64,000 bases of DNA from Pseudomonas helmanticensis (lineage in GTDB: Bacteria; Pseudomonadota; Gammaproteobacteria; Pseudomonadales; Pseudomonadaceae): assembly GCF_900182985.1 (NCBI RefSeq), contig NZ_FXUY01000001.1, positions 1,922,001-1,986,000 on the forward strand. The letters are read 5' to 3'. The notes beneath the pieces were generated by a model that was not told the DNA's origin, ran no database searches, and worked only from the letters and a program-made list of their open reading frames with translations. The translations under genes were made by a program, and so were the position numbers. Of the stretch, positions 8,797 through 28,671 are shown piece after piece; position 1 is the stretch's first letter, and each line of letters begins with the position of its first letter.

Positions 8797-10326
8797 TTAG
8801 TGCCCGGAAGCGGCCGGGCCGGCCTTCGCAGCAAACGGTGGCTTGGCCAGCCACACAATCAGAATCAACCCCATGAAGCCCCAGCCCAGCAGCGTGAAGT
8901 AATCCACGGTGGAGAGCATGTACGCCTGACTGGTCAGCACATGATCGAGCTGCGCATACGCCGGGTTGCTCGCCCCGCCCAACTGGTTCAGCGCCTCACG
9001 TGTGGCCGGCTCATAAGTGCTGATGCTTTCACTCATATACGCATGATGCTGATCCGCCCGACGAATCCAGATCCACGTGGTCAGCGACGCCGCAAAACTA
9101 CCGCCCAACGTCCGCAGGAACGTCGCCAGGCCCGCGCCATCGGCAATCTGGCTCGGCGGCAGGTCAGACATCAAAATGCTCAGGGTCGGCATGAAGAAAA
9201 GTGCCACGCCAATGCCCATGAACAGCTGCACCAGCGCGATGTGCTGGAAGTCGACTTCGTTGGTGAACCCAGCCCGCATGAAGCAGCTCAGGCCAATCGC
9301 CAGGAACGCTAGCCCGGCCAGCAGGCGCAGGTCGAACTTGTTCGCGTACTTGCCGACAAACGGCGACAGCAGCACCGGCAGAATCCCGATCGGCGCCACG
9401 GCCAGCCCGGCCCACGTTGCGGTGTAGCCCATTTGCGTCTGCAACCACTGCGGCAGGATCAGGTTGATGCCGAAGAACCCGGCGTAACCCAGCACCAGCA
9501 CCAGCGTGCCGATGCGGAAGTTACGGTGCGCAAACAAGCGCAGGTTGACCACCGGATGCTGGTCGGTCATTTCCCAGATGATGAACACCGCCAGTGCCAC
9601 CACCGAAATCGCCGCGCCAATGATGATGAAGTTCGACTCGAACCAATCCAGGTCATTGCCCTTGTCGAGGATCACCTGCAACGCGCCAACACCAATGATC
9701 AGCGTGATCAGACCGACGTAATCCATCGGCTGACGGCTGGTTTCCACCGGACGTTTGGCCAACTGCGAGCGCACCACCATCACCGCAAAGATGCCAATCG
9801 GCACGTTGATGAAGAAGATCCACGGCCAGCTGTAACTGTCAGTAATCCAGCCACCAAGAATCGGCCCAGCAATGGGCGCCACCACTGTGACCATCGCCAG
9901 TAACGCCAGGGCCATGCCACGCCTGGCGGGCGGATAGACCGCGATCAACAGGGTTTGCGTCATCGGGTACAGTGGCCCGGCGACCAGACCTTGCAGCACG
10001 CGGAAGCCGATCAGTTCCGGCATCGACGTCGAGATACCGCAGAGAAACGAGGCCAGCACAAACAGAATGGTGGCCCACAAAAACAGTTTTACCTCGCCGA
10101 AACGGCGGCTGAGCCAGCCGGTCAGAGGCAGCGCAATCGCGTTGCTCACCGCGAACGAGGTGATCACCCAGGTGCCCTGCTCCGAACTCACCCCCAGGTT
10201 GCCGGAAATCGTCGGCAGCGCCACGTTGGCGATGGTGGTGTCGAGCACTTGCATGAACGTCGCCAGCGACAGACCGATGGTGCTGAGCAACAGGCTGGGC
10301 GGCGTGAAAGAGGCGTTATTGCTCAT
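8797..10326 (-). CDS. emrB: DHA2-family MFS multidrug exporter, EmrB-like
   Basis: Inner-membrane drug/proton antiporter of 509 aa with 14 predicted helices. DHA2 signatures are visible: motif D1-like LATFMQVLDTTIANVALPTI in helix 1, GWLSRRFGEVKLFLW (motif A) and LLAMVTVVAPIAGPILGGWI (motif C). AAAGGA lies 8 nt before ATG 10326. It is the last gene of a leftward marR-OMF-emrA-emrB operon and should pump substrates through the EmrA-like adaptor and NodT-like outer membrane channel. A REP pair separates it from emrA. The substrates are unknown. Confidence 0.9.
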   Translation of the reverse strand: MSNNASFTPPSLLLSTIGLSLATFMQVLDTTIANVALPTISGNLGVSSEQGTWVITSFAVSNAIALPLTGWLSRRFGEVKLFLWATILFVLASFLCGISTSMPELIGFRVLQGLVAGPLYPMTQTLLIAVYPPARRGMALALLAMVTVVAPIAGPILGGWITDSYSWPWIFFINVPIGIFAVMVVRSQLAKRPVETSRQPMDYVGLITLIIGVGALQVILDKGNDLDWFESNFIIIGAAISVVALAVFIIWEMTDQHPVVNLRLFAHRNFRIGTLVLVLGYAGFFGINLILPQWLQTQMGYTATWAGLAVAPIGILPVLLSPFVGKYANKFDLRLLAGLAFLAIGLSCFMRAGFTNEVDFQHIALVQLFMGIGVALFFMPTLSILMSDLPPSQIADGAGLATFLRTLGGSFAASLTTWIWIRRADQHHAYMSESISTYEPATREALNQLGGASNPAYAQLDHVLTSQAYMLSTVDYFTLLGWGFMGLILIVWLAKPPFAAKAGPAASGH

Positions 10327-10415
10327 CGCGAATCCTTTGGAACCGGGTTGGCGCTGCGTCCGTTACAGACGCGGCTGCCCATGCGGAAAACAATCTATGG
10401 GATAAGGAAAACTAC

Positions 10416-10521
10416 TGTGGCGAGGGGATTTATCCCCGTTGGACTGCGCAGCAGTCCCGTCTTTTCCTGATCCAAAGAGGGGCCGCTGCGCGACCCAACG
10501 GGGATAAATCCCCTCGCCACA
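10416..10521. repeat. GGCGAGGGGATTTATCCCC-type inverted pair
   Basis: Two inverted copies of TGTGGCGAGGGGATTTATCC, with loop arms GACTGCGCAGCAGTC and GCCGCTGCGCGAC. It lies in the 259-bp gap between emrA and emrB, inside the operon, where it could affect mRNA stability. Confidence 0.85.
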
Positions 10522-10585
10522 AGGAATTCCTTTTCCCAGATCAATCCCTGTATCTCAGATAAATCCCCTGACCACAGGTGTGATC

Positions 10586-11788
10586 TCAGCGTTGCGCGGT
10601 TTTGCTGACCGCTGCGCTGTTGTCGTGGATCAGCTGCGCAATCATCGCGTCGGCTTCGGCCAGTTGGCGGTCGTAAACATTGGTGCTGAACGAGGCCTTT
10701 TGTGGAGGCTGTTGCGCCAGCACCGGACCGCTCTGGTCGTGCAGGTTCACTTCAACATTGGTCGACAGACCGACGCGCAGCGGATGCTTGGCCAGTTCTT
10801 CGGCGTTGATGTGGATGCGCACCGGCACACGCTGAACAATCTTGATCCAGTTACCGGTGGCGTTCTGCGCTGGCAGCAAGGCAAACGCGCTACCGGTACC
10901 GGCGCCAAGGCTGTCGACGGTGCCGCTGTACTTCACGTCGCTGCCGTAGATGTCCGACTCGATATCAACCGGCTGACCGATGCGCATGTCACGCAGTTGG
11001 GTTTCCTTGAAGTTCGCATCGATCCACAGTTGATCCAGCGGAATCACTGCCATCAGCGCCGTGCCCGGCTGCACACGCTGACCAAGTTGTACGGTGCGTT
11101 TGGCCACATAACCGGTGACCGGCGCGATCAAGGTGCTACGGGCATTGGTCAGGTAAGCCTGACGCAGATCGGCAGCGGCGGACATCACGTCCGGGTGCGA
11201 CGACACCACGGTGTCATCGACCAGTGCGCTGGTGGTTTTCAGTTGCTGCTTGGCATTGGCCAAGGCGTTTTGCGCCGAGGTCAGGTCGTCGCGAGCGTGG
11301 GACAGTTCTTCCTGGGAAATTGCCCCGCCCTGCGCCAGGTTCTTCCGGCGGTTGTAGTTGTCCTGGGCTTTTTGCACTTCAGCCTGTTGCGCGTTGACCT
11401 GGGCTTTCATGCCATCAACGTTGCTGTACAAGCCGCGCACCTGACGTACGGTGCGCGCCAGTTTCGCTTGAGCACTTTGCAGGCCGACTTCGGCGTCGTT
11501 CGGGTCGAAGTTGATCAGTACCTGGCCTTCATGCACCAGATCACCGTCGTCAGCACCGATGCTGACCACGGTGCCAGTCACCAGCGGGGTGATTTCGACG
11601 ACGTTGCCGTTGACGTAGGCGTCGTCAGTACTTTCATTGAAGCGCCCGATGAATTCGTGATACGCCCAGACGCCGGCGCAGGCGAGTGCAACCACGACCG
11701 CCAGGACCAACAGCATCACTTTGCGTTTGCGCGGGTTGCCGGTGTCCGGGGTGTTGTCTTGAGCTTGGGTGTTTTCGGCAGTGGCCAT
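10586..11788 (-). CDS. emrA: EmrA-like periplasmic adaptor (HlyD family)
   Basis: Membrane fusion protein of 400 aa linking the EmrB-like pump to the outer membrane channel. Visible in order: a cytoplasmic lead, one transmembrane anchor (VMLLVLAVVVALACAGVWAY), a barrel-sandwich start (NVVEITPLVTGTV), an alpha-helical hairpin rich in Gln/Ala (about 100-215), the second lipoyl half (TLIAPVTGYVAKRTVQLGQ) and a C-terminal beta-barrel. AAGGT precedes ATG 11788. It is 15 bp downstream of the OMF gene. Confidence 0.92.
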   Translation of the reverse strand: MATAENTQAQDNTPDTGNPRKRKVMLLVLAVVVALACAGVWAYHEFIGRFNESTDDAYVNGNVVEITPLVTGTVVSIGADDGDLVHEGQVLINFDPNDAEVGLQSAQAKLARTVRQVRGLYSNVDGMKAQVNAQQAEVQKAQDNYNRRKNLAQGGAISQEELSHARDDLTSAQNALANAKQQLKTTSALVDDTVVSSHPDVMSAAADLRQAYLTNARSTLIAPVTGYVAKRTVQLGQRVQPGTALMAVIPLDQLWIDANFKETQLRDMRIGQPVDIESDIYGSDVKYSGTVDSLGAGTGSAFALLPAQNATGNWIKIVQRVPVRIHINAEELAKHPLRVGLSTNVEVNLHDQSGPVLAQQPPQKASFSTNVYDRQLAEADAMIAQLIHDNSAAVSKTAQR

Positions 11789-15401: not shown

Positions 15402-15415
15402 TAAGAATCGCCTGA
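15402..15415 (+). promoter_or_regulatory. RcsB-like box upstream of the adhesin gene
   Basis: TAAGAATCGCCTGA matches 13 of 14 positions of the RcsB homodimer consensus as I recall it (KMRGAWTMWYCTGW). A -10-like TCTAAC starts 22 bp after the box, and the adhesin ATG is 65 bp downstream. Near-identical boxes lie at 16457 and 24437. Confidence 0.65.
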
Positions 15416-15479
15416 TGTCCATCGGCAAACGGCGTGTCTAACGTACGCCACTCTTTGGCCAACACGTAAAGTCCCTTTC

Positions 15480-16451
15480 ATGAAGCGTCTAAAACTGCAA
15501 CGCTCCCTGCTCACCTGCGCCGCGGCGACGTTGCTGGCCTGCGCAACGGACGCGATGGCAGCCATTTGCTCATTCACCGGTAATATCAACACGCAAACGC
15601 TCAATTTCGGCGCCAGCCTGGCCAATGGTGGTCTGACCATCCCCGCTGACACGCCCGATGGAACCGTGGTTTACCAGGATACTGCGCAGCAATCGTCTAA
15701 TAACGAATGGGAATGCACCGCCTCCACGCAATATGGTGTGGGCGTCAATCCTGTCTATGGTACCCCGACCGACAAAGTATCCACGTTCCCTCTGGGCAAT
15801 ACAGGGCTTTCCTTCCGGGTCTGGATAGATGCGCTAAATCGCTATGAGGGTTCGCTGCGTGCGTTAGTGCCAGGGCGCTACGCCATACCATCAGGCTCGA
15901 CCCGTCTGGAAATCGTCAAGTCAGGCCCATTGGCGGCGCAGATCACGATACCGGCCGGCAATCTGGGCAATCTGCAATCAAGTGAAATCATCTTGAGCAA
16001 ATACAACCTGGCCAACGCTTTGGTGTTGAACGCAGCCTCCTGCCAGACCCCTGCCGTCCCGGTCGCCATGGGCGATGACTATCAACTCCAGGAGTTCAGC
16101 GAAGCGGGCGCCAAACCCCGCACCGTGCGCTTCGCCATCGCCTTGAATCAGTGCCAGACCGGCATCAGGAAAGTCACCTATTCGCTCAAGGCCACCACGC
16201 CCGTCATCGACGCGACCAAGGGCATCGTTGCACTCAATAGCACCTCCACCGCCACTGGCATCGGCCTGCAATTGATGAATGACGTCGGGCAACCGATCGC
16301 ATTCGACACCACCTACCCGTTCAACGCCTTCACCACCACCGGAACCGATTTCAAAATCCCGTTAACCGCCGCGTACTACCGTCTGCCCACGGGCGAACTC
16401 AAGGCTGGCAGCGCCAACACCGAAGTCACCTTCGTCGTGAACTACTTGTAG
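15480..16451 (+). CDS. Fimbrial tip adhesin (two-domain pilin)
   Basis: Secreted protein of 323 aa. A signal peptide (cut after DAMA) is followed by an N-terminal domain of about 165 aa of receptor-binding type, then a pilin-like domain starting near ASCQTPAVPVAMG, with a second Cys in LNQCQTG and a C-terminal beta strand (NTEVTFVVNYL) for chaperone and usher recognition. The double-length architecture is that of FimH/CupB6-type tip adhesins, not shaft pilins. It lies upstream of the signalling genes, 8 kb from the pilin, chaperone and usher genes it should need, on the same strand and behind the same type of RcsB-like box. The ligand is unknown. Confidence 0.75.
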   Translation: MKRLKLQRSLLTCAAATLLACATDAMAAICSFTGNINTQTLNFGASLANGGLTIPADTPDGTVVYQDTAQQSSNNEWECTASTQYGVGVNPVYGTPTDKVSTFPLGNTGLSFRVWIDALNRYEGSLRALVPGRYAIPSGSTRLEIVKSGPLAAQITIPAGNLGNLQSSEIILSKYNLANALVLNAASCQTPAVPVAMGDDYQLQEFSEAGAKPRTVRFAIALNQCQTGIRKVTYSLKATTPVIDATKGIVALNSTSTATGIGLQLMNDVGQPIAFDTTYPFNAFTTTGTDFKIPLTAAYYRLPTGELKAGSANTEVTFVVNYL

Positions 16452-16456
16452 CACTC

Positions 16457-16470
16457 TAAGGATCGTCTGA
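16457..16470 (+). promoter_or_regulatory. RcsB-like box upstream of the first hybrid kinase
   Basis: TAAGGATCGTCTGA is the weaker of the three boxes, with two mismatches to the RcsB consensus. CATAGA, a possible -10, starts 22 bp downstream, the same spacing as at the other boxes. It suggests that the regulatory genes are themselves under the RcsB-like regulator. Confidence 0.5.
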
Positions 16471-16505
16471 TTTCCCCCGCTCCCGGCCCTCCATAGAGTG
16501 CCGGG

Positions 16506-19307
16506 ATGAGATTGAAGAACTACCTCCATCAGATCAGCCCGCTCCTGTCCTCGCCCGATGCGGCGCGGCGCCTGCTGCGCATTTTTGCCCTGGTGCTGCT
16601 GGTGGGCATTCTAGGCGGCGTGTACAGCTTCCTGCTGTTTACCTTCAACAATGAGATTTCCCAACGGCGCAGCTACATGAGCAGCGCCATCGCCGAAGCG
16701 CATACCTTTTTCACCACCCGTGAAGCGCTGCTGGAAAGCCTGAGCCTGTCGGCCACACGCAAGGCGAAAATAAACGTGCCGGTGTCCGAAGAAGAAATCC
16801 GTCTGCTGCTGGGGCAACCGCCGGGCAAGCAATGGAGCATCTGGCTGACCCAGCGAATGCGCGATTACCTGAAAGCCAAGCAGCTCAATCTGCTGTATGT
16901 CAGCAATGGCGGTCATGTATTGCGGCTATACAACGCGACGCCGCTGGTCGTCGGTTTGCCACAGGCCACGCTGGATCAACTGGAAGCGCTCAAGCTCACG
17001 GCGACCTTGTCGGAACTGTGGCTGACCCATGCCGCAGACGGGCACTCGCAGCTGTACATCTTCATTCGCCTGGATGAACGCGATGTCCACTCCGGCTGGC
17101 TCGGCCTGGAAATGGACGACCGTGAAGTCTCCAACGCCTTGAACGACCACAGCGCCGGCGAGTTCACCATGTTCAACTCCCAAGGCAAGCCGCTGTTCAG
17201 CAACAGCCATAAACCACCGCCCGAACAGAATCTGCCGCTGCTGCGGCAACAGGATTTTTTCGGCTTCGTCGGCGATGGCTGGCTGCCCGAGCAATTGGTG
17301 TTGCGCAAACAGCTGAAATCGTCGGATTGGCAGCTGACTTACTCCATTGATTTGCTGGCGGTGCTGCGCGCCCTGTGGCCACAAATGCTCGGCGCGCTGC
17401 TGTTCTGCGTGTTGAGTATCAGCCTGGTGTGCCTGTTGGTTCGTCGTTTGGAGCATCGCGTCATTACCCCGGCGATCCAGCGCATACAGGCGCTGGTGGA
17501 AAGCGAACTGTTCAGCCGCGACGTGATTCAGACCGCGCCGGTGGCGCTGTGCGTGCTGCGCCGCAGTGACGGCCAAGTGGTGCTGGACAACACCCTCGCG
17601 CGGCAATGGCTGGGCCAGTGCAGCGAGCAACTGGGCGCGGGCTGGATCCGTGATGCATTTGACGAAACCACGCCATGCCTGACCGATTACTTCGAGACCG
17701 CCGACGGTCGTCACCTGTACCTGAGCTGTGCGCCCACCCGCTACAAGGGTGAAGACGTGTTGCTCTGTGCATTTAGCGATATCAGCGCACGGCGGCAAAT
17801 CGAAGCAGCACTGGAACAGGCACGCCAATCGGCGGATGCCGCCAACGAAGCGAAGACCTTGTTTCTGGCGACCATGAGCCACGAAATCCGCACCCCGCTC
17901 TACGGCGTACTGGGCACTCTGGAGTTGCTCGCGCGCACGCAGCTGGACACTCAGCAGAAAAGTTACCTGCGGGCGATCGAGGGGTCGTCGGCCACCTTGC
18001 TGCAGTTGATTTGCGACGTGCTCGATGTGTCGAAGATCGAAGCCGGGCAACTGGCGCTGGAGCTGAGCGAATTTTCCGTCTTAGATCTGGTGCACGAGGT
18101 GGTGCAGGGTTACGCCGCTGCCGCGCAAAGCAAAGGCCTGCAACTCTATGCCTGCCTGGACCCGCAACTGCCTGAGCACTTGATCGGCGATGTCAGCCGG
18201 GTGCGACAGATCCTCAACAACCTGCTGAGCAACGCGGTCAAGTTCACCGATTCCGGGCGCGTGGTGTTGCGAGTCAGACTGCTCGCTCGCGAAGGCGAAC
18301 GCGTGTGTCTGCAATGGCAGGTTTCGGACACCGGCAAAGGCATCGCCCATGACGATCAGGCGTTTATTTTCGAACCGTTCTACCAGACCGCCGGCAACAC
18401 CAATGTGGTTGCCGGCACCGGCCTGGGGTTGCCGATCTGCCAGCGTCTGACCCACTTGATGAATGGCACCCTGCGCATGGTCAGCGAGCCGGGCCTGGGC
18501 AGCAGTTTTTCCCTGAGCGTGCCGCTGGAGCAACGCTGCAGTAACACACCATCCGCAGCTTTGCCGCCCTTGGCAGCGGACATTGTCTATGTCGTTTCGC
18601 CCGTGCGCGAACTGGCCGACAGCGTCAGTGGCTGGTTGCGTCGTTGGGGCGCCCGCGCGCATATCGGCGCACCGGACGACATCGAGCCTGATACAACGGC
18701 AGTGTTGCTGGAACTGTATCCCGCGGCCTTCGGACAGCGCCCGAACCTGACATGGCGCGGGCCGCGCGTACTGGCCAGCGGTGACGGCGCCCACGAGCCG
18801 CAGTTCAGCGGCGACGGCTGGCAGGTCAATCTGAATGATCTGCTGGCGATTCAACGGGCCGTTCGCCAGGCCCAGAGCGGCCAGATCCTTCACCGCCCGC
18901 AAGACAATGAACCCCACGCGATGAGCGCGTTGCACCTGCACATCCTGGTGGCCGAAGACAACGTCATCAATCAACTGATCCTGCGCGATCAGCTCGAAGA
19001 ACTCGGCTGCACCGTGGCACTGGCCAGCGACGGCGAAGAGGCCTTGGCGCTGTGGCCCGACGCTGCGTTCGACATCATCTTGACCGACGTCAACATGCCC
19101 CGCCTCAACGGTTATGAGCTGGCCAAAGCCCTGCGGCGCCTCGGTTGCAGCATTCCGATCATCGGCGCGACCGCCAACGCCCTGCGCGGTGAGGACGCGC
19201 TGTGCCTGGCTGCCGGCATGAATCACTGCCTGGTCAAACCTTTTACGCTACGAGCCTTGTTCGCTGTCCTGGCTCCCTACGAACGAGTCGCCCATGAAGC
19301 CCTGTAG
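16506..19307 (+). CDS. Hybrid sensor histidine kinase (RocS/RcsC-PvrS type), no Hpt
   Basis: Inner-membrane kinase of 933 aa. Two transmembrane segments (about 24-47 and 292-316) bracket a periplasmic sensor region. Then come a PAS-like segment, the HisKA box [15 protein letters not shown] (H459), HATPase N, G1 and G2 boxes ([29 protein letters not shown]), a degenerate receiver-like module (about 690-790) lacking a phospho-Asp, and a true receiver (DIILTDVNMP, D861). The protein ends after the receiver, with no Hpt domain. Phosphate transfer to the RcsB-like regulator therefore needs an external Hpt, most simply that of the second kinase at 20568. It overlaps the phosphodiesterase gene by 14 bp. 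Confidence 0.9.
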   Translation: MRLKNYLHQISPLLSSPDAARRLLRIFALVLLVGILGGVYSFLLFTFNNEISQRRSYMSSAIAEAHTFFTTREALLESLSLSATRKAKINVPVSEEEIRLLLGQPPGKQWSIWLTQRMRDYLKAKQLNLLYVSNGGHVLRLYNATPLVVGLPQATLDQLEALKLTATLSELWLTHAADGHSQLYIFIRLDERDVHSGWLGLEMDDREVSNALNDHSAGEFTMFNSQGKPLFSNSHKPPPEQNLPLLRQQDFFGFVGDGWLPEQLVLRKQLKSSDWQLTYSIDLLAVLRALWPQMLGALLFCVLSISLVCLLVRRLEHRVITPAIQRIQALVESELFSRDVIQTAPVALCVLRRSDGQVVLDNTLARQWLGQCSEQLGAGWIRDAFDETTPCLTDYFETADGRHLYLSCAPTRYKGEDVLLCAFSDISARRQIEAALEQARQSADAANEAKTLFLATMSHEIRTPLYGVLGTLELLARTQLDTQQKSYLRAIEGSSATLLQLICDVLDVSKIEAGQLALELSEFSVLDLVHEVVQGYAAAAQSKGLQLYACLDPQLPEHLIGDVSRVRQILNNLLSNAVKFTDSGRVVLRVRLLAREGERVCLQWQVSDTGKGIAHDDQAFIFEPFYQTAGNTNVVAGTGLGLPICQRLTHLMNGTLRMVSEPGLGSSFSLSVPLEQRCSNTPSAALPPLAADIVYVVSPVRELADSVSGWLRRWGARAHIGAPDDIEPDTTAVLLELYPAAFGQRPNLTWRGPRVLASGDGAHEPQFSGDGWQVNLNDLLAIQRAVRQAQSGQILHRPQDNEPHAMSALHLHILVAEDNVINQLILRDQLEELGCTVALASDGEEALALWPDAAFDIILTDVNMPRLNGYELAKALRRLGCSIPIIGATANALRGEDALCLAAGMNHCLVKPFTLRALFAVLAPYERVAHEAL

Positions 19308-20481
19308 CATTCTGATTGTCGAAGACCACCCCTTCCAACACCTGTATTTGCAGAACCTGTTCAGCGAGTTGGGCGACTTTGATCTGGCGTGCGCCAGGGA
19401 CGGCGAAGAAGCACTGGATTACCTGAAACAACGCGACTTCGATCTGGTGCTCACCGACCTGCTGATGCCCGGCATGGACGGCGTGCAATTTATTCAGGGC
19501 CTCGCCGCCCAACGTTCGCGTCCGGCGCTGGCGATCATGAGCGCCGCCTCACGACGCATGCTGATGGGCGCGAGCCTGGTGGCGAGCAACCTGCAAGTGA
19601 AAGTCATCGGGCTGATTTCCAAACCAGTGAACGCTGCCGCCCTGCGCTGCCTGATCGATCAATTGCAGGCGCTGCGCCAGAGCGCTCCAGCGGCGAACCA
19701 TCCCGGCATTGATCGTCAGAGTATTTCCAACGCCCTCGACAATGGTGAACTGCAAGCCTGGTTTCAACCCAAAAAGGCCTTGAGCAATGGCCGCATTGTT
19801 GCCGCCGAAGCGCTGGTACGCTGGAACCATCCCGAACATGGCACGCTGTTGCCCGGTGTGTTCTTGCCGGCATTGATTGCGTTCGGTCTCGAAGAGCCGT
19901 TGCTCTGGTGCGTGCTGAAACAGGCGATCACCGCCCAAGCGACCTGGCGCGAACAGGGCTATGACATTCCGGTCTCGGTCAATTTGCCCACGCACCTGCT
20001 CAACAGCCACGACCTGCCCGACCGCATCCTCGCTTTCGTGCTTGCCCATCAGGGCTTGCCCGCGCGGATCTGTTTCGAGTTGATGGAGTGCTCGGTGCCC
20101 GATGACATCAGCAATTTCTACGCCGGCGCGTGCCGCTTGCGGATCAAGGGGTTCGGTCTGTCGCAGGACGATTTCGGCAAGGGCTACAGCTCATACATGA
20201 ACCTGGTGTCCGCGCCGTTCACCGAACTGAAAATCGACCGTGCTCTGGTACAAGGCTGCAATGCCAACGCCGAACTCGCGCAAGCCCTGACCAGCATTGT
20301 CAGCCTCGGTCGCCAATTGGGTCTGACCGTGGTGGCCGAAGGCGTAGAAACCGCACAAGAACTTGCTCTGTTGCGTAAGATCGACTGCACTCAGGTTCAG
20401 GGTTTCCTGATTTCCCACGCCGTTTCAGCCGAGCAGTTCCAGCACTTGCTGACCCACGACGGGCCGGCGACTGCCTATTGA
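19294..20481 (+). CDS. Response regulator c-di-GMP phosphodiesterase (REC-EAL, RocR/PvrR-like)
   Basis: Cytoplasmic protein of 395 aa. The receiver domain has the acidic pair in VEDHP and phospho-acceptor D55 (LVLTDLLMPG). The EAL domain starts near 150 with EALVRW at 172-177. Residues needed for hydrolysis are present: N230, E265, D292-D293 (DDFGKGYSS), K313 and E349 (VAEGVET). An active enzyme degrading c-di-GMP is therefore predicted. Length and layout match P. aeruginosa RocR (about 392 aa) and PvrR, which antagonise cup fimbrial expression. Its start lies inside the upstream kinase gene, so the two are translationally coupled. Confidence 0.92.
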   Translation: MKPCSILIVEDHPFQHLYLQNLFSELGDFDLACARDGEEALDYLKQRDFDLVLTDLLMPGMDGVQFIQGLAAQRSRPALAIMSAASRRMLMGASLVASNLQVKVIGLISKPVNAAALRCLIDQLQALRQSAPAANHPGIDRQSISNALDNGELQAWFQPKKALSNGRIVAAEALVRWNHPEHGTLLPGVFLPALIAFGLEEPLLWCVLKQAITAQATWREQGYDIPVSVNLPTHLLNSHDLPDRILAFVLAHQGLPARICFELMECSVPDDISNFYAGACRLRIKGFGLSQDDFGKGYSSYMNLVSAPFTELKIDRALVQGCNANAELAQALTSIVSLGRQLGLTVVAEGVETAQELALLRKIDCTQVQGFLISHAVSAEQFQHLLTHDGPATAY

Positions 20482-20567
20482 GCGGCACGTGGCTGTTGTT
20501 CAACGTCGCTCGCTACCGAGGTCACTGTGTCCCAAGGCTGTCCCATCACCGCTGGCCAGGCGCTGTA

Positions 20568-23500
20568 ATGCCGCATACCAATGCATTTCTGGACAAACTG
20601 GCCAGCAGTTCGCTGCGCTTGAACAAAAGTCTGCTGCTGCTCGGCGCCCTGGTGTTGCTGCTGTTGGGCATCAGCTATGTTGGCGTGCAGCGCATGCTCG
20701 AAGAGCAGCGCGATACCCTGCAGTTTCACTTCGCCCGGTTGATGGAGAACATCCACGAGCAGGAAGTGTTTCTGCGCGATATCTCGCAAGCCAGTGCCAA
20801 GGGCCAATATTTCCCTTTGGTGTTGCCCACTTATTCGCAAAAGCTGCTGCCCGAAGAAGGCCCGAATGTCTATGAAGGACGCGGCTTGCCGTTCTCCCTG
20901 CCGTTCAGTGTAAAGATCGATCCGCACAGAATCGCCGCCGACCAATACCCCAAGGTTTTCGCGCTGGGCAGTTATCTGGCCGCCTACTACAGCGCGTTCT
21001 GGGCGGCATCGCACTATCAGTCGCCGCAAGTGATCCTGCTCAATGGCCCCGACAACTTCGACGTGGCCGTGCCCTCCGCCGGGCGCTTGCGCGGTGCCGG
21101 CCCCATGCAGATTGGCGCGTTTGCCGAAATAATGAGCCAGGTGAACCAGCACACACGCGAGCAGCCTTCATCCGCGGCCGATCATCAAGTGCATTGGGCG
21201 CCCTACCCGCCCACTCAGGACAGCGAGGCGACACCGACCCTGCTGGCCTACGTCAGGATCAATCTGCTGCAGCCAACGCTGACCATTGAAGGTGCCGATT
21301 CCTGGGTGGTGCTCGGCACGCTGTTGAAACTGTCCCAGGTGAACAACATCGAGCGATTGATGGAGTGGTCGATTTACGATGACTTCACTTTGATCACCCC
21401 GGCCGGCGTGGTCTTGACCGGCGCACAGAGGTCCGACCAGGCACTGGATGAAGGGATAAACTTCAACCGCGACGGCCTGGTGTTCAAGCTGAGCAGCCCC
21501 GGCGAGCAACACTGGACCGCGATCTACGTCATCAGCCTGCGCAGTTTCCTCAGCTATGCGCTGTGGCCATTGCTGTGCCTCGTGGCGGTGGTGCTGGCGT
21601 TGCTCGGTTGCGGTCGGGCCATCAATCGCTGGTACACCGCGCGCGTGATACTGCCGGCGCAAAGTGCGCACGCGAGCATCGCCGAAAGCGAGGCATTCAG
21701 CCGGGCGGTGATCGACACCGCGCCAACCGGCCTGTGCGTGATCCGCCGCAGCGATCACCACGTACTCCTGGAAAACCAGCGCGCCCAGCAATGGCACGAC
21801 AGCAGCCGTTTGATGAGCCTGCTCAAGTCGCACACACAGTCCGGTCATGCCGATCTGGAAATCGACGGGCGGCACCTGCATATGGCCTTCGTCTCGACAC
21901 GTTACCAGGGCCAGGACGCTTGGCTGTGTGCGCTGCACGATGTGACCCGGCACATCGAAGACGCGGCAGCCCTGGAAGAAGCACGGCAGGCCGCCGACTC
22001 GGCCAACCAAGCCAAAAGTCGTTTCCTCGCCACCATGAGCCATGAGATTCGTACGCCGCTCTACGGTGTGCTAGGCACCCTCGAATTGCTCGGCCTGACG
22101 CCGCTCGCGCCGCGCCAGCAGGATTATCTGGACACCATCCAGCGCTCCTCCGCCAGCCTGTTCAAGCTCATCAGCGATGTGCTCGATGTGTCGAAGATCG
22201 AGGCCGGGCAAATGACCCTTGAGCTTCAGGACTTCTGTCCGCTGGAGCTGACTGAAGACGTCGTGCGCACTTACAGCGCCTTTGCCCGCGCCAAAGGCCT
22301 GCAACTGTATGCGTGCATCGATTCGGCATTGCCGGACCGGCTTCTGGGTGACCCGTTGCGCATCCGCCAGATTCTCAACAACCTGCTGAGCAACGCGATC
22401 AAATTCACCGACAATGGCCGCGTGGTGCTGCGCGGACGCGTGTTGCAAAACGCCGCTGGCAGCGCCGAAGTGCAATGGCAGGTCAGCGATTCGGGCGTGG
22501 GGATTTCCCAGGCGCAGCAACAGCAATTGTTCGACCCGTTCTATCAGGTCAACGACGCCGACAGTCAGGCCGGCGCGGGTCTGGGCCTGGCCATTTGCAA
22601 ATGGCTGTGCGAGTTGATGCACGGTCAGTTGAGCGTGGTCAGTGAACCGGGGTTGGGCAGCAGTTTTACCCTGCAACTCGCACTGGAGAACGTGCCGGGC
22701 GCATTGGCCGACTGCCCCGCGTTCGTGGCCGGAAGCCCCGCCGTTTATGTTCGTGCACCCGTTAACGAACTGGCGCTGCACCTCATCGCCTGGCTCAATC
22801 GTTTTGGCCTGGATTGTCGCTTGGTGACGACCGAGATGCCGCCATCGGCGGCGCTGTTGGTGGACCTCATGCCCCTCGACAATGCCCCGCGCTGGAGCGG
22901 GCCAAGGATCGTCGCCGTAGCGGGCGGGCCAAACCCGTCGCAACTGAATGGCACCGACTGGGCGGTCGACGCCGACGATGTGCGCGCAATTGCCTGGGCG
23001 ATTTATCTGGCACAACACGGCACCCATGCGCAGCGCCCAGCCTCGTTGCAGGCAAAGACCCGCCCACTGAATCTGCAGGTGCTGGTGGCCGAAGACAACG
23101 TGATCAACGCGGCGATCATCAAGGAACAACTGGAAGCACTGGGCTGCGCGGTGGTCGTCGCCGCGAATGGCGAACAGGCCTTGGCACAGTGGGCGCCCGG
23201 TCGTTTCAATCTGCTGCTGACCGACGTCAATATGCCCGTCGTGAATGGCTACCGGCTGGCCGAGGCCGTACGCCAACAGGACGCGACGCTGCCGATCATT
23301 GGCGTCACCGCCAACGCCCTGCGCGAAGAAGGCGAACGCTGTGCCGCCGTTGGCATGAACGCGTGGATGGTCAAACCGCTGAACCTCGCTACCCTGCGCA
23401 CGCAACTTGAGCAACATTGCAAAATCGCTGTGGCCCCCGTTATCGATGCCCCGCCGCCGCTATCAGCAAAAATGCGCGAGTTGTTTGTCACCACCCTGCG

Positions 23501-23732
23501 CCAGGATATTCAGACCACCCTGACGGCACTGGATGCAGCCGACGCCAACAGCGTGGCGCAGCAACTGCACAGCATGGCGGGGGCGTTGGGGGCGGTGCAG
23601 ATCAACGTCTTGGCCAGCGCGTTTGTCGAACTGGAATGTCGCTTGACCGGCATGGCCGTGACGCCCGCGCTGGCCGTGGAAGTACGCCAACACCTGGCGC
23701 GGCTGAATGATTTGCTCGACTCCCTCGAATAA
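20568..23732 (+). CDS. Hybrid sensor histidine kinase with C-terminal Hpt (RocS1-like)
   Basis: Unorthodox kinase of 1054 aa, paralogous to the kinase at 16506. Two membrane segments (about 24-42 and 330-348) bracket a periplasmic region. They are followed by a PAS-like segment, HisKA ([16 protein letters not shown]492), HATPase, a receiver-like module without phospho-Asp, a receiver ([10 protein letters not shown]886) and an Hpt domain ([12 protein letters not shown]1001). ATG 20568 is chosen because the membrane anchor follows directly; a TTG at 20478 overlapping the previous gene is possible but adds unlikely sequence. It can run a full His-Asp-His-Asp relay to the RcsB-like regulator, whose start is 22 bp downstream. 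Confidence 0.9.
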
Positions 23733-23754
23733 CTTCACTCTGGATAAATCACTC

Positions 23755-24402
23755 ATGGAAACCTTCAACGTTGTCATTGCCGATGATCACCCCATCGTGC
23801 TGCTGGGGGTACGGGAACTGGTCGAGCGTGATCAACGCTTTCGCGTGGTGGGCGAAGCCGTTGGCTCCGATGAGCTGATCAAGCTGCTGGAGACCCGGCC
23901 TGTGGATTTGTTGATCACCGACTTCAACATGCCCGCCGAGTCGCCCTACGGTGACGGCCTGAAACTGGTGGAATACCTGACGCGGCATTTTCCCAAGGTT
24001 CGGGTGTTGGTGCTGACCATGATCTCCAATCCGTTGATCCTGACGCGCCTGCAGGAACTCGGCGTGCTGGCGGTCATTCAGAAAAACCAGCTGCACGATG
24101 AAATAGCCGCCGCCCTCAAAGCCATTGCCAAAGGCAGCCCGGTGCGCTGGCAGACACCCGCGCCGACATCAGTGGTGAACGACGGCGCTGATCTGGACGA
24201 ACGTTTTTCAAGGCTGTCGCCCAAGGAACATGAAATCCTGCGTTTGTTCGTTCAGGGCCAGGGCGTCAACGACATTGCCCGCCACTTGAACAGAAGTGCC
24301 AAAACCATCAGCACGCAGAAAATCTCGGCGATGCGCAAACTTGAAGTCAGCAGTGACCAGGAACTATTGACTTATTGCATCGAACGCAACTTGTTCAACT
24401 AA
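23755..24402 (+). CDS. RcsB/RocA1-like response regulator
   Basis: Two-domain regulator of 215 aa, the same size as E. coli RcsB. The receiver has the acidic pocket in IADDHP and phospho-acceptor D56 (LLITDFNMPAE), exactly the RcsB position. The C-terminal LuxR-type helix-turn-helix reads SPKEHEILRLF...NDIARHLNRSAKTISTQKISAMRKL, and the KTIS-QK-SAM recognition-helix pattern is typical of RcsB. ATG 23755 is used; the in-frame extension to 23707 only overlaps the kinase gene. It is the likely output of both kinases, and its predicted sites are the boxes at 15402, 16457 and 24437. It sits directly upstream of the pilin gene. Confidence 0.9.
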   Translation: METFNVVIADDHPIVLLGVRELVERDQRFRVVGEAVGSDELIKLLETRPVDLLITDFNMPAESPYGDGLKLVEYLTRHFPKVRVLVLTMISNPLILTRLQELGVLAVIQKNQLHDEIAAALKAIAKGSPVRWQTPAPTSVVNDGADLDERFSRLSPKEHEILRLFVQGQGVNDIARHLNRSAKTISTQKISAMRKLEVSSDQELLTYCIERNLFN

Positions 24403-24436
24403 CAAAGCGGACAATTCGATGAGACTTCCGTATATC

Positions 24437-24450
24437 TAGGAATCGTCTGA
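24437..24450 (+). promoter_or_regulatory. RcsB-like box upstream of the pilin operon
   Basis: TAGGAATCGTCTGA, 13 of 14 to the recalled RcsB consensus. The sequence after it (TGTTCCATCGGTAAACCGCG) is nearly the same as after the adhesin box at 15402. A -10-like TTTATT begins about 22 bp after the box, and the pilin ATG is 62 bp downstream. Confidence 0.7.
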
Positions 24451-24511
24451 TGTTCCATCGGTAAACCGCGTTTTATTGTGTTGCTTTAACCCCACCAATG
24501 GAAAAAGCAAC

Positions 24512-25105
24512 ATGAAAAAGTTGTCCCGAACGCTTCTCGCCCTTTCGATCTTCGCTGCGGCCGGCAATGTCCTGGCAGCCGACCCACCGGTTACGCCAAC
24601 CAAGGCGGGCAGCGGCACCATCAACTTCACCGGCACCATCAACAACGACGCCTGTTCGGTTGAAAGCGCCGGCAAGGACAAGACCATTTCGGTCGCCATG
24701 GGTGAAGTGTCGATCAAAGACATGGGCACCGCGACTGCGCCGAAAGGCAACGGCACCTTGAGCGTCGAAAACTTCGACATGAAGATCAACTGCAACGCTG
24801 GCACCAAGGTTGCGATGATCTTCGAACCGACCAAAGGCGCCGGTTCGGGCATCGAGCCTGGCACTAAAGTGCTGCGACTGATCAGCGGCCTGGGGGCTGC
24901 AAAAGGCATCGGTATCGCCTTGCTCGACGCCAATGGCGCTGTGATCGACTTGAGCTCGCCAGCCACCGCGAAGATCGAAAACACCCTGCAGGACAGCAAT
25001 ACCACGCTGAAATTTTCGGCCGCCTACGTCACCACGGTTGACCCGAAACTGGCTGTTGCCGGTCGTGGCGATGCCACCCTGCCGTTCACCCTCCAATACG
25101 AATAA
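24512..25105 (+). CDS. Major fimbrial subunit (type 1-like pilin)
   Basis: Pilin of 197 aa. Signal peptide MKKLSRTLLALSIFAAAGNVLA, then a single pilin domain: donor strand region SGTINFTGTINNDACSV, first Cys in NNDACSV, second Cys in MKINCNAGTK, and the terminal beta-zipper strand GDATLPFTLQYE. ATG 24512 is chosen for the signal peptide; GGAAAAAG lies upstream. It is the first structural gene after the regulators and is separated from the chaperone by a GC-rich hairpin. It resembles CupA1/CupB1/CupD1-class shaft subunits. Confidence 0.88.
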   Translation: MKKLSRTLLALSIFAAAGNVLAADPPVTPTKAGSGTINFTGTINNDACSVESAGKDKTISVAMGEVSIKDMGTATAPKGNGTLSVENFDMKINCNAGTKVAMIFEPTKGAGSGIEPGTKVLRLISGLGAAKGIGIALLDANGAVIDLSSPATAKIENTLQDSNTTLKFSAAYVTTVDPKLAVAGRGDATLPFTLQYE

Positions 25106-25177: not shown

Positions 25178-25927
25178 ATGTTTTATCGTCACTCACTGTC
25201 ATTTTGCGCGGGCCTGCTGGGCCTGTTCGTGGTCACTCAGGCCACGGCCGGCATTTCCCTGAGCAGCACCCGCCTGATCTTCGACGGCCAGCACAAGGAA
25301 GCCGGCATCACCGTCCGTAACAGCGGTGAAGACGTATTGATCCAGTCCTGGATCGACACCGAAGCCAGCGAAACCGCTTCCGTGCCATTTGCGGTCACAC
25401 CGCCGCTGGTGCGTGTCAGCGGCGAAGAACAGCAAATACTGCGGGTCATCTACGAAGGCACCGGCATGCCGACCGACCGCGAATCGGTGGTCTGGTTGAA
25501 CGTGCAGGAAATCCCCCAGACCGCGAAAACCCAGAACACCTTGCAGCTCGCCGTACGTCAGCGCATCAAGGTGTTCTTCCGCCCCGCGGGCCTGAAAAAC
25601 AACGCCTACCTTGCACCGGGTGAGTTGACCTGGCGCCTGGCCGAGCGCGCCGAAAAAAGCGTGCTGGTGGTGAACAACCCCGGTCTTTATCACGTGTCTA
25701 TTGCCGATATCACCCTGCAATCCGGCGCACTCAGCGAGCACCCGTTTGATTCGATGATGATCGCCCCCGGCGAACGCAAAGAGTTCGCCCTGAAACAACT
25801 TCACTCGACGAACACGCCAACTTTGTTATTCAGCAGTATTAATGACTATGGCGCTCAAGATCGTTTTACCGCGCAACTTTCCAACAGCGCCGAAAACCGC
25901 GCTCGTCCAAAGAACGAATCTCCATAA
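25178..25927 (+). CDS. Periplasmic fimbrial chaperone (PapD/FimC family)
   Basis: Chaperone of 249 aa for pilin folding in the periplasm. Signal peptide ends near TQATA, and the mature start GISLSSTRLIFDGQHKEAGITVRNSG is typical of the family. The signature region is VWLNVQEIPQTAK...LQLAVRQRIKVFFRPAGL, with the conserved Arg and Lys that anchor subunit C-termini, and a second Ig-like domain follows. ATG 25178 is preferred to 25148, which lies in the hairpin. It sits 72 bp after the pilin and 84 bp before the usher. Confidence 0.92.
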   Translation: MFYRHSLSFCAGLLGLFVVTQATAGISLSSTRLIFDGQHKEAGITVRNSGEDVLIQSWIDTEASETASVPFAVTPPLVRVSGEEQQILRVIYEGTGMPTDRESVVWLNVQEIPQTAKTQNTLQLAVRQRIKVFFRPAGLKNNAYLAPGELTWRLAERAEKSVLVVNNPGLYHVSIADITLQSGALSEHPFDSMMIAPGERKEFALKQLHSTNTPTLLFSSINDYGAQDRFTAQLSNSAENRARPKNESP

Positions 25928-26011
25928 CTCGCGAGTCGCTTTGATCGCGCACTTTCACTGTATTTCTCTTCGCTCCGTTAGTTCGTATCGGAGGTGATAT
26001 AGGGTTCCTGC

Positions 26012-28510
26012 ATGTTTTTACTCAAACGCGACGGCCTGGCATCGTTGTTGATCGCCTCGGCTATCAGCACGGCGTGCCAGGCTGACGGCGATGAACAGTT
26101 CAATACCTCGTTTCTGCAAGGTGCCGCGTCGACCGTCGATGTGCAATCGCTGCTCGCCAGTAACAGCGTACTGCCCGGCCACTACCGGGTTGACCTCTAC
26201 AGCAATGACACGCTGGTCGGTCGTCGCGACATCGACTTCCGCCGCCACCCCGGCAACGGCAAGATCCAGGCCTGCCTGACCCTGGAGATGGTCCAGCAGT
26301 TGGGCGTCGACATCGCCAAGTTGCAGGCCAGCGGCAAACTCGACGCCGACGATCCGAGCGCCTGCCTCGACCTGCCGGCACTGATCGAGCATGCCTCCGT
26401 GCGTTACGACGTGCCACGCCTGCGCCTGCTGGTCAGCGTGCCGCAAAGCGCCATGGAACGTGGCCGGCGTGGTTACGTTGATCCGGCGCTGTGGGACGAA
26501 GGCGTGCCGGCAGCATTCATCAACTATCAGGTCAGCAGCAACCGTAACAGCACGCAAACGGCCGATACCATTGCCAATAACGTCGGCCTGCGCAACGGCA
26601 TCAACCTCGGCGGCTGGCGTCTGCGCAATGAGTCCAACTTCAACAGCAGCACCGGCCAGCCGAGTACGTTCAAGAGCAACCGCAGCTATCTGCAACATGA
26701 CCTGACCGCGCTGAAGGGCCAGTTCAGCGCCGGGGATATTTTCTCCGACGCCGACCTGTTCGACAGCGTGCGCTATCGCGGCCTGAAACTGGCCTCCGAT
26801 GACGGCATGCGCGCTGACAGCGAACGCGGCTACGCGCCTGTCATTCGCGGGATCGCCCAGTCCAGCGCCACCGTGGAAATTCGTCAGAACAACTACATGC
26901 TCTACAGCGCCAACGTGCCGCCGGGCCCGTTCGAGATCAGTGATATCTATCCCAGCGGTTCCAACGGCGATCTGGAAATAACGATCATCGAGGCCGACGG
27001 TCAGCGCCGGGTGACGGTGCAGGCGTTCTCCAGCCTGCCGATCATGGTGCGTCAGGGTCAGTTGAAATACAGCGTCTCGGCCGGCCGCTACAACAGCAAT
27101 AGCGATGACCAGCAGACACCGCAGTTCCTCAGCAGCACGCTGGCCTATGGCATCAGCAGCAATTTGTCCGGCATCATCGGCGTGCAGGCGACCGAGGATT
27201 TCCAGGCGTTGTCCTTGGGCGCCGGGCGCAATACGTCGATCGGTGCCGTGTCGCTCGACGTGACGCATTCCGCCAGCCGCACCTTTGGCCAAGTGGTCAA
27301 GGGCAACAGTTTGCGCGCGCTGTACGCCAAGACATTCACCGGTACCGACACCAGCTTCACCCTCGCCGCCTATCGCTATTCGACCGAGGGTTATCGCACC
27401 CTCACCGACCATGTCGAGGAACTGAGCCACGAGGGCGAAAAACGCACCGGCAACTCGAAGACCCGCACCGACCTGACCGTCAATCAGAGTCTGGGACGCG
27501 ATCAGCAATTTGGCAGCGTCTACCTCAATGCCAGTGACCAGCGCTATTGGGGACGCGGTGGCTCGCAAAGTCTCTCGGCGGGTTACAGCAACTATTGGGG
27601 CGAAGTCAGTTACAACCTCGGCGCCACCTACACCAAGGATATCGGCAACTATGGGCCGGCGAACAACGACACCCTGGTCAACCTGTCGCTGTCGTTCCCG
27701 CTGGGTTCGAAACCTCGTGCACCCCGTGCCTTTGTTTCCGCGAGCACACAGAAAGCCACCGACAGCACCCAAGTGGGGATCAATGGTTACCTGACGGAAG
27801 ACAGCGATACTTACTATTCGGTGCAAGGTGGTAGCAGCAGCACCGGCGGCGGCAGTGGTTCGGCCAACCTCAGCACCCGCACCTCGGTAATGGACATCAG
27901 TGCCGGTTACAGTCAGGGGCGCGGCTACAACTCGCAGAACCTCAATCTGGCCGGTTCGATCGTCGGCCACGGCGGCGGGATCAACCTCGGGCAAACCGTC
28001 GGTGAGACGTTTGCGCTGGCGCAGGTAGAAGGGGTTTCCGGGGTAAAGATCGGCAGCTTCTCCGGGGCGAAAACCGCTCGTAATGGCTATGCCGTGGTGC
28101 CCAATGCGCAACCCTATCGGGTCAACTGGATCAACCTCGACACCCGCGATCTGGGCGCCGATATCGAAATCGATAACGCGACCCGGCAAGTGGTGCCGCG
28201 CCGTGGTGCAGTGGTGCTGGCACGCTATGCGAGCAAGACCGGGCGCCGCGTGCAATTTGCCTTGTTCGATACGCAGCACCGGCCGATTCCCTTTGGTGCT
28301 TCCCTTGAAGATGGCGCTGGCAAGCAACTGGCAATCTCCGACCCGAGCGGCAAGGCACTGGCGCTGGTGGAAAGCGACACCGGGACGCTCACAATCAATT
28401 GGCAAGGCCAGCGTTGTGAAGCACCGTATGCGTTACCTGAACGTGACAAGGCATTGAACTATGAGCGGGCCTCGCTGGTGTGCCGCCCGTCCCCAGTTAA
28501 TCTGCCGTAA
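26012..28510 (+). CDS. Fimbrial outer membrane usher (FimD/PapC family)
   Basis: Usher of 832 aa that secretes and polymerises the fimbria. After a signal peptide (cut near ACQA) come the N-terminal chaperone-binding domain (FNTSFLQG...LPGHYRVDLYSND), the 24-strand barrel with plug (PVIRGIAQSSATVEIRQNNYMLY...PPGPFEISDIYPSG) and two C-terminal domains ending in a Cys pair (QRCEAPYALP...LVCRP). A very strong Shine-Dalgarno GGAGGTGAT lies 13 nt before the ATG and AGGG 7 nt before it; no other in-frame start exists because a TAG is 12 nt upstream. It is the last gene of the locus. Confidence 0.94.
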   Translation: MFLLKRDGLASLLIASAISTACQADGDEQFNTSFLQGAASTVDVQSLLASNSVLPGHYRVDLYSNDTLVGRRDIDFRRHPGNGKIQACLTLEMVQQLGVDIAKLQASGKLDADDPSACLDLPALIEHASVRYDVPRLRLLVSVPQSAMERGRRGYVDPALWDEGVPAAFINYQVSSNRNSTQTADTIANNVGLRNGINLGGWRLRNESNFNSSTGQPSTFKSNRSYLQHDLTALKGQFSAGDIFSDADLFDSVRYRGLKLASDDGMRADSERGYAPVIRGIAQSSATVEIRQNNYMLYSANVPPGPFEISDIYPSGSNGDLEITIIEADGQRRVTVQAFSSLPIMVRQGQLKYSVSAGRYNSNSDDQQTPQFLSSTLAYGISSNLSGIIGVQATEDFQALSLGAGRNTSIGAVSLDVTHSASRTFGQVVKGNSLRALYAKTFTGTDTSFTLAAYRYSTEGYRTLTDHVEELSHEGEKRTGNSKTRTDLTVNQSLGRDQQFGSVYLNASDQRYWGRGGSQSLSAGYSNYWGEVSYNLGATYTKDIGNYGPANNDTLVNLSLSFPLGSKPRAPRAFVSASTQKATDSTQVGINGYLTEDSDTYYSVQGGSSSTGGGSGSANLSTRTSVMDISAGYSQGRGYNSQNLNLAGSIVGHGGGINLGQTVGETFALAQVEGVSGVKIGSFSGAKTARNGYAVVPNAQPYRVNWINLDTRDLGADIEIDNATRQVVPRRGAVVLARYASKTGRRVQFALFDTQHRPIPFGASLEDGAGKQLAISDPSGKALALVESDTGTLTINWQGQRCEAPYALPERDKALNYERASLVCRPSPVNLP

Positions 28511-28538: not shown

Positions 28539-28671
28539 TGTAGGAGTGAGCCTGCTCGCGATAAGGCCATCAGCCGCACCATTGATATCGACTGAAAAAA
28601 CGCTATCGCGAGCAGGCTCACTCCTACAGGGGAACGCATTCCAAATGTAGGCCTTCGCCTGCTCGCGATGG
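28539..28671. repeat. REP-type inverted pair (GAGTGAGCCTGCTCGCGAT class)
   Basis: TGTAGGAGTGAGCCTGCTCG and its inverse at 28539-28628, then a further partial unit to 28671. It lies between the convergent usher and tamB genes. Confidence 0.85.

Follow-up and report, generated by a model that had tools for sequence, protein, structure and literature searches.

A 64,000-nucleotide (nt) stretch of the Pseudomonas helmanticensis genome (assembly GCF_900182985.1, contig NZ_FXUY01000001.1, forward-strand positions 1,922,001 to 1,986,000; here called the window) carries a fimbrial locus in which three promoter regions share a box resembling the binding site of the response regulator RcsB. The genes of the locus lie on the + strand and were assigned by Pfam matches. 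The first encodes a fimbrial adhesin-like protein (15480 to 16451, 323 amino acids), with a Fimbrial domain (PF00419) in its C-terminal part (residues 186 to 322) and no Pfam match in its N-terminal part. It is followed by a pvrS-like gene for a hybrid histidine kinase, with a predicted leaderless start (16506 to 19307, 933 amino acids), a pvrR-like gene for a receiver-EAL protein (19294 to 20481, 395 amino acids), an rcsC-like gene for a hybrid kinase with an Hpt domain (20478 to 23732, 1084 amino acids), and an rcsB-like gene for a LuxR-type response regulator, the predicted activator of the three boxes (23755 to 24402, 215 amino acids). Genes for a fimbrial pilin (24512 to 25105, 197 amino acids), a PapD-type fimbrial chaperone (25178 to 25927, 249 amino acids), and an outer-membrane usher (26012 to 28510, 832 amino acids) come next. 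The names pvrS, pvrR, rcsC, and rcsB were assigned from the gene order and domains of the Pseudomonas aeruginosa PA14 island (PMC3842833).

Box 1, TAAGAATCGCCTGA (15402 to 15415, + strand), lies in the adhesin promoter and is followed by the predicted −10 hexamer TAACGT (15439 to 15444, + strand). Box 2, TAAGGATCGTCTGA (16457 to 16470, + strand), lies in the promoter of the signalling operon and occupies positions −49 to −36 relative to the pvrS ATG; its predicted −10 hexamer, TAGAGT (16494 to 16499, + strand), ends 6 nt 5′ of that ATG, and the TAG within it is an in-frame stop. Box 3, TAGGAATCGTCTGA (24437 to 24450, + strand), lies in the pilin operon promoter upstream of the predicted −10 hexamer TATTGT (24474 to 24479, + strand), and its GAA (24440 to 24442) falls at −72 to −70 of the pilin ATG. 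All three 14-mers stand where the original prediction, made from the DNA letters, had placed them (15402, 16457, and 24437, + strand), and hand counting confirmed its 1, 2, and 1 mismatches against KMRGAWTMWYCTGNY, a sequence that appeared in none of the literature matches listed and that we take to be an RcsB consensus.

The same prediction had placed a −10-like hexamer about 22 nt behind each box; the hexamers are there, but the spacing was measured as exactly 23 nt in all three cases. A 6-nt −35 slot and a 17-nt spacer together make up this distance, and the box therefore abuts the −35 slot. A search for consensus sigma-70 promoters gave none at the three box sites and one match elsewhere, on the other strand, as would be expected of promoters that depend on an activator. 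Boxes 1 and 3 had also been said to share about 20 bases downstream. Most of these bases are indeed shared, with a one-base offset, but they diverge in more distant relatives, and a functional role for them was therefore rejected.

The box was then sought in the window and in the 6.53-Mb genome. With 3 mismatches allowed, the window alone contained 22 matches against 15.9 expected, a slight enrichment that was reached by 5 of 100 shuffles. In the genome, the pattern TARGRATCGYCTGA has three exact matches, which are the three boxes and no others; this pattern was derived from the three boxes, so the genome count alone is circular and the independent test is the comparative one. Allowing one mismatch gave 8 further genome matches (2 for the reversed control), all of them inside mechanical reading frames, with one (L006) overlapping a possible start codon. 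A wider regulon in this genome was not supported at this stringency: all 13 of the extra matches (the 8 with one mismatch plus 5) were without a TANNNT at 22 to 24 nt. Weaker sites may nevertheless extend the regulon.

To compare the promoters across the genus, the best 80 of 140 loci with an rcsB relative, all 80 of them from Pseudomonas, were combined with the window into a set of 81 sequences. Scanning these for a composite of the box (at most 1 mismatch to TARGRWTYGYCTKA), a gap of 22 to 24 nt, and TANNNT yielded 146 matches, and the reversed box yielded 0. For counts per gene, up to 2 mismatches in the box were allowed. A box and −10 preceded the pilin gene in 44 of 45 loci with a pilin gene, pvrS in 65 of 76 loci (five loci with partial pvrS matches, L032, L040, L088, L097, and L098, were omitted from the pvrS counts), and the adhesin gene in at least 13 of the 21 loci with a located adhesin start. 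Locus L034 adds one more adhesin case in the composite scan, and L021, where the adhesin match is partial, is left out of the adhesin count even though it has the composite. The box also stays with genes that have moved: it accompanies a pilin operon displaced by about 5 kb in L041, and it still precedes the inverted adhesin gene of L024, there without TANNNT.

An even draw of 298 Pseudomonas genomes was sampled as well. The exact 15-mer TAAGRATCGTCTKAT occurred in 78 copies in 48 genomes, and its reversal did not occur. An rcsB orthologue (E ≤ 1e-50) was present in 76 of the 298 genomes and in 46 of the 48 genomes with the box, and 70 of the 78 exact boxes lay within 10 kb of an rcsB orthologue (Fisher p ~4e-31, a statistic that ignores relatedness). 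TANNNT stood at 23 to 24 nt in 28 of 30 genus loci (27 of 29 judged, plus L113). Among the eight exact boxes not within 10 kb of rcsB, two are in a fragmented genome (G206), and two (in G104 and G110) stand 49 nt before the ATG of a gene for a PapD-type fimbrial chaperone, with CAGAAT in place of TANNNT at the −10 position and with rcsB over 2 Mb away. The layout recurs in dozens of related species, and the pattern is well above chance expectation both in the whole genome and between species. That the adhesin, the signalling operon, and the pilin operon form one regulon of the local RcsB-like protein, as had been proposed from the window, is well supported by these comparisons, with RcsB binding as the predicted link.

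Some counts weigh against so simple a regulon. The remaining 4 of the 78 exact boxes lie near neither rcsB nor any visible fimbrial gene start; three have no TANNNT, and one (in G110) has TANNNT at 24 nt with no gene start within 150 nt. Conversely, 30 of the 76 genomes with rcsB are without the exact 15-mer. At the level of single genes, the adhesin is without the composite in 7 of 21 loci, and pvrS is without TANNNT at 22 to 24 nt in 11 of 76.

Other arrangements of the box were seen within the locus set. In L046 a divergent box, TCAGAATCGCCTTA or near it, stands at 844 to 857 (− strand) with TANNNT at 23 to 24 nt; likewise in L047 to L049, L051 to L056, L058, and L064. The L046 box faces a small gene (243 to 791, − strand) that appears receiver-like by eye, has no Pfam match, and recalls the PA1468 case in PMC3842833. 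In L042, L045 to L049, L051 to L056, L058, and L064, a box and −10 at about 780 to 940 (+ strand) stand before the gene for a second fimbrial chaperone, upstream of pvrS; in L046 PapD domains are encoded at 906 to 1652, and an adhesin-sized gene comes next in both L046 and L042. Apparent tandem duplications have copied a boxed pvrS start or a boxed adhesin gene (L031, 652 to 1218; L034, 512 to 2716). In L090 the rcsB reading frame is broken (10001 to 10644) and both boxes are kept. Downstream of the usher gene in the window, an inverted intergenic repeat around GTAGGAGTGAGCCTGCTCGCGAT (28540 to 28640) was seen by eye; it resembles the repetitive extragenic palindromic (REP) elements of fluorescent pseudomonads.

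The regulator was compared with RcsB proteins. It is about 44 to 47% identical to the best enteric RcsB records, its best match among solved structures is Escherichia coli RcsB (2.6e-44, followed by the NarL family at 6.8e-16), and its full-length similarity to RcsB exceeds that to other NarL-family members. The recognition helix is nearly identical to that of E. coli RcsB. All 80 readable RcsB proteins retain the equivalents of K180, T181, Q185, and K186, and 81 of 81 retain the phosphoacceptor D56. In E. coli, the base contacts of RcsB are K180 and S184 (PMC5829831). Sites of the RcsB homodimer are usually upstream of the −35 element (PMC5651002). Of the Pseudomonas proteins, 24 have T and 56 have A at the S184 position, a point against the proposed regulation. 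In its TCTTA form the box is an inverted repeat, TAAGA-n4-TCTTA, whose center lies at −42.5 if transcription starts at the ATG. No clear link was seen by eye between the box class (TCTGA or TCTTA) and changes in the recognition helix. Binding of the box by the local RcsB is a prediction.

The spacing at pvrS extends to the start codon. In 73 of 76 loci the pvrS box begins 48 to 50 nt ahead of the ATG, and in 64 of these 73 a TANNNT lies at 23 to 24 nt and ends 6 nt (55 loci), 7 nt (8 loci), or 5 nt (1 locus) before the ATG. Placed seven bases after the hexamer, +1 is the A of the pvrS ATG. The start codon is ATG in 75 of 75 starts examined, and an in-frame stop is found at −12, inside the hexamer, in 35 of them. 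At the other promoters the leader that follows the −10 is not fixed in length: it measures 29 to 61 nt for the pilin and 23 to 44 nt for the adhesin. Among distant pairs of 46 pvrS promoters with identical geometry, the spacer is 34% identical, the discriminator 32%, and the region upstream of the box 29%; the box is 86% and the −10 75% identical, in loci that had been preselected for box and TANNNT. A box likewise lies 49 nt before the ATG of a fimbrial chaperone or chaperone-like gene in L036 (839 to 888), L136 (1702 to 1751), and L139 (1858 to 1907), the last two more than 2 Mb from rcsB; there CATGAT or CAGAAT replaces TANNNT. This geometry predicts a leaderless phosphorelay operon throughout the genus, the transcription start itself being part of the prediction.

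The strongest alternative accepts the RcsB regulon but gives the pvrS operon a leader. Its mRNA would start upstream, by read-through from the adhesin gene or at a second promoter, and the fixed distance would reflect a compact intergenic region. Read-through is possible, as the adhesin gene ends 5 nt upstream of box 2. Further observations weaken the leaderless case. In L087 (2508 to 2643), about 86 additional nt separate the −10 from the pvrS ATG, which is the only clear departure from the leaderless spacing, and L099 and L100 have no box. The usher gene, which has no box, shows the same 6-nt distance from TANNNT to ATG in 18 of 20 cases (26000 to 26012 in the window). The Shine-Dalgarno words AGGA, GGAG, and GAGG are absent from −20 to −4 of all 75 pvrS starts, and they are likewise absent from the starts of the pilin (0/39), chaperone (0/25), usher (0/20), adhesin (0/12), and rcsC (0/10) genes, so this test does not discriminate; such words are present at 13 of 62 pvrR and 9 of 78 rcsB starts. 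Moreover, pairing with the 16S tail reaches −4.4 kcal/mol or better at 5 of the 75 pvrS starts. Because the usher has a similar TANNNT and other genes also do without Shine-Dalgarno words, the leaderless case rests on the fixed composite of box, −10, and ATG. A leadered pvrS mRNA is harder to reconcile with a box-to-ATG distance of 48 to 50 nt that is held while the spacer diverges, and that is kept even where the upstream gene differs, is absent, or is inverted. We regard the leadered alternative as unlikely, though it deserves to be taken seriously.

It is improbable that the boxes are bound by another NarL-family regulator, or by RcsB paired with an RcsA-like partner as a heterodimer. Candidates exist, as there are eight other NarL-family matches in the genome, and enteric RcsB also works with partners (PMC5829831, PMC5651002). 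However, these paralogues are only 28 to 32% identical to the regulator, and the presence of the box tracks the rcsB orthologue (46 of 48 genomes). The TCTTA form, a symmetric inverted repeat, is what would be expected of a homodimer.

RcsB might instead repress its own operon through box 2, in a negative feedback loop. The Salmonella Rcs relay is said, in an article title, to be autoregulated, reportedly with a negative sign. Against repression, box 2 stands at the same distance from the −10 as the pilin box does, and overproduction of RcsB in PA14 raises pvrS, pvrR, rcsC, and rcsB (PMC3842833). This explanation is very improbable. Finally, chance similarity with shared ancestry and no function, which would fit the modest enrichment in the window alone at 3 mismatches, is next to impossible: it was rejected because the reversed-box controls gave 0 in both comparative scans (against 146 and 78 matches), and it is already contradicted by conserved islands within diverged DNA.

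The locus has a close counterpart in the PvrSR/RcsCB-CupD system on the PAPI-1 island of PA14. In PA14, pvrS is upstream of pvrR and rcsC is upstream of rcsB, and the four genes are predicted to be one operon (PMC3842833). The order pvrS-pvrR-rcsC-rcsB, followed by a pilin operon, is the same here, as are the hybrid kinase, the receiver-EAL PvrR, the RcsC with an Hpt domain, and the LuxR-type regulator. In PA14, cupD1 depends critically on a GAA at −78 to −76 (PMC3842833); in the window, too, a box precedes the first pilin gene and places a GAA near −75. In contrast to the five-gene cluster cupD1-5, rcsB is followed in the window by pilin, chaperone, and usher genes only (the search for a second chaperone was not extended to the whole genome), and the locus is therefore called CupD-like rather than cupD. 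A PA14-type copy, sought among plasmids only, gave no record above 60% identity. The window also differs from PA14 in having a solitary adhesin gene, with a box to itself, upstream of pvrS, and in having a box with predicted leaderless geometry before pvrS; the available text of PMC3842833 mentions no pvrS box.

Two other systems invite comparison. Like the enterobacterial RcsB or RcsAB box, the box here starts TAAGAAT and lies upstream of the −35 position, whereas its right half, CTKA, differs from TAAGAATATTCCTA; S184 of the enterobacterial regulator is replaced, and the targets seen in this analysis are genes of fimbriae and of the relay. By its description, the P. aeruginosa Roc1 system (RocS1/RocA1/RocR) of CupB and CupC is similar in plan, with a sensor, an EAL regulator, and a DNA-binding regulator that antagonistically control fimbriae (PMC3842833). 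Work on PA14 had already described the regulator, the pilin box, and the self-induction. Among the literature matches listed, and in the available text of PMC2696094 and PMC3842833, there is no report of a pvrS box, a leaderless pvrS mRNA, or a genus-wide rule, which is not proof of absence.

Taken together, we consider it probable that the three promoters, with one box and one spacing, are co-activated by phosphorylated RcsB, including the promoter of its own, likely leaderless, operon. The box, the 23-nt spacing, and the TANNNT hexamer, with the way they are conserved and go together with rcsB, are features of the DNA itself; activation, the direction of the phosphorelay, and the c-di-GMP (cyclic diguanylate) effect in this strain we infer from PA14. 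In the proposed mechanism, phosphate would pass from PvrS to the Hpt domain of RcsC and on to RcsB, a route with genetic support in PA14. Phosphorylated RcsB would then bind the three boxes and jointly switch on the adhesin gene, pvrS-pvrR-rcsC-rcsB, and pilin-chaperone-usher. A homodimer on the imperfect inverted repeat TAAGA-n4-TCTKA, centered at −42.5, could touch RNA polymerase and substitute for the missing −35. RcsB would thereby induce its own relay operon, whose pvrS mRNA would likely begin at the ATG with no leader, in a positive feedback loop. Co-induced PvrR would oppose this feedback by lowering c-di-GMP, and so limit or disperse biofilm. The shared box would also bring the adhesin back into step with the pilin operon, from which the relay genes separate it. 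A bolder version, which we consider less likely than not, is that RcsB throughout Pseudomonas drives a phosphorelay operon that is leaderless by design, in which box, −10, and ATG are locked in distance and PvrS is always leaderless, making a self-amplifying pilus switch.

These comparisons turn one promoter site of PA14 into a genus-wide rule (box, 23 nt, TANNNT) that leads to pilus genes even at a distance from rcsB, and box 2 offers an explanation in cis for the reported self-induction of pvrSR/rcsCB. If the bolder version is true, the switch would amplify itself with its brake, PvrR, on the same mRNA; it would escape control through the 5′ untranslated region, such as by small RNAs or Rsm/Hfq-type repression, and it would stay translatable when ordinary Shine-Dalgarno initiation is limited. 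Should the leaderless prediction hold, the multi-step phosphorelay would be encoded by a conserved, regulated leaderless operon, and this operon would offer a ready test case for why bacteria keep leaderless starts.

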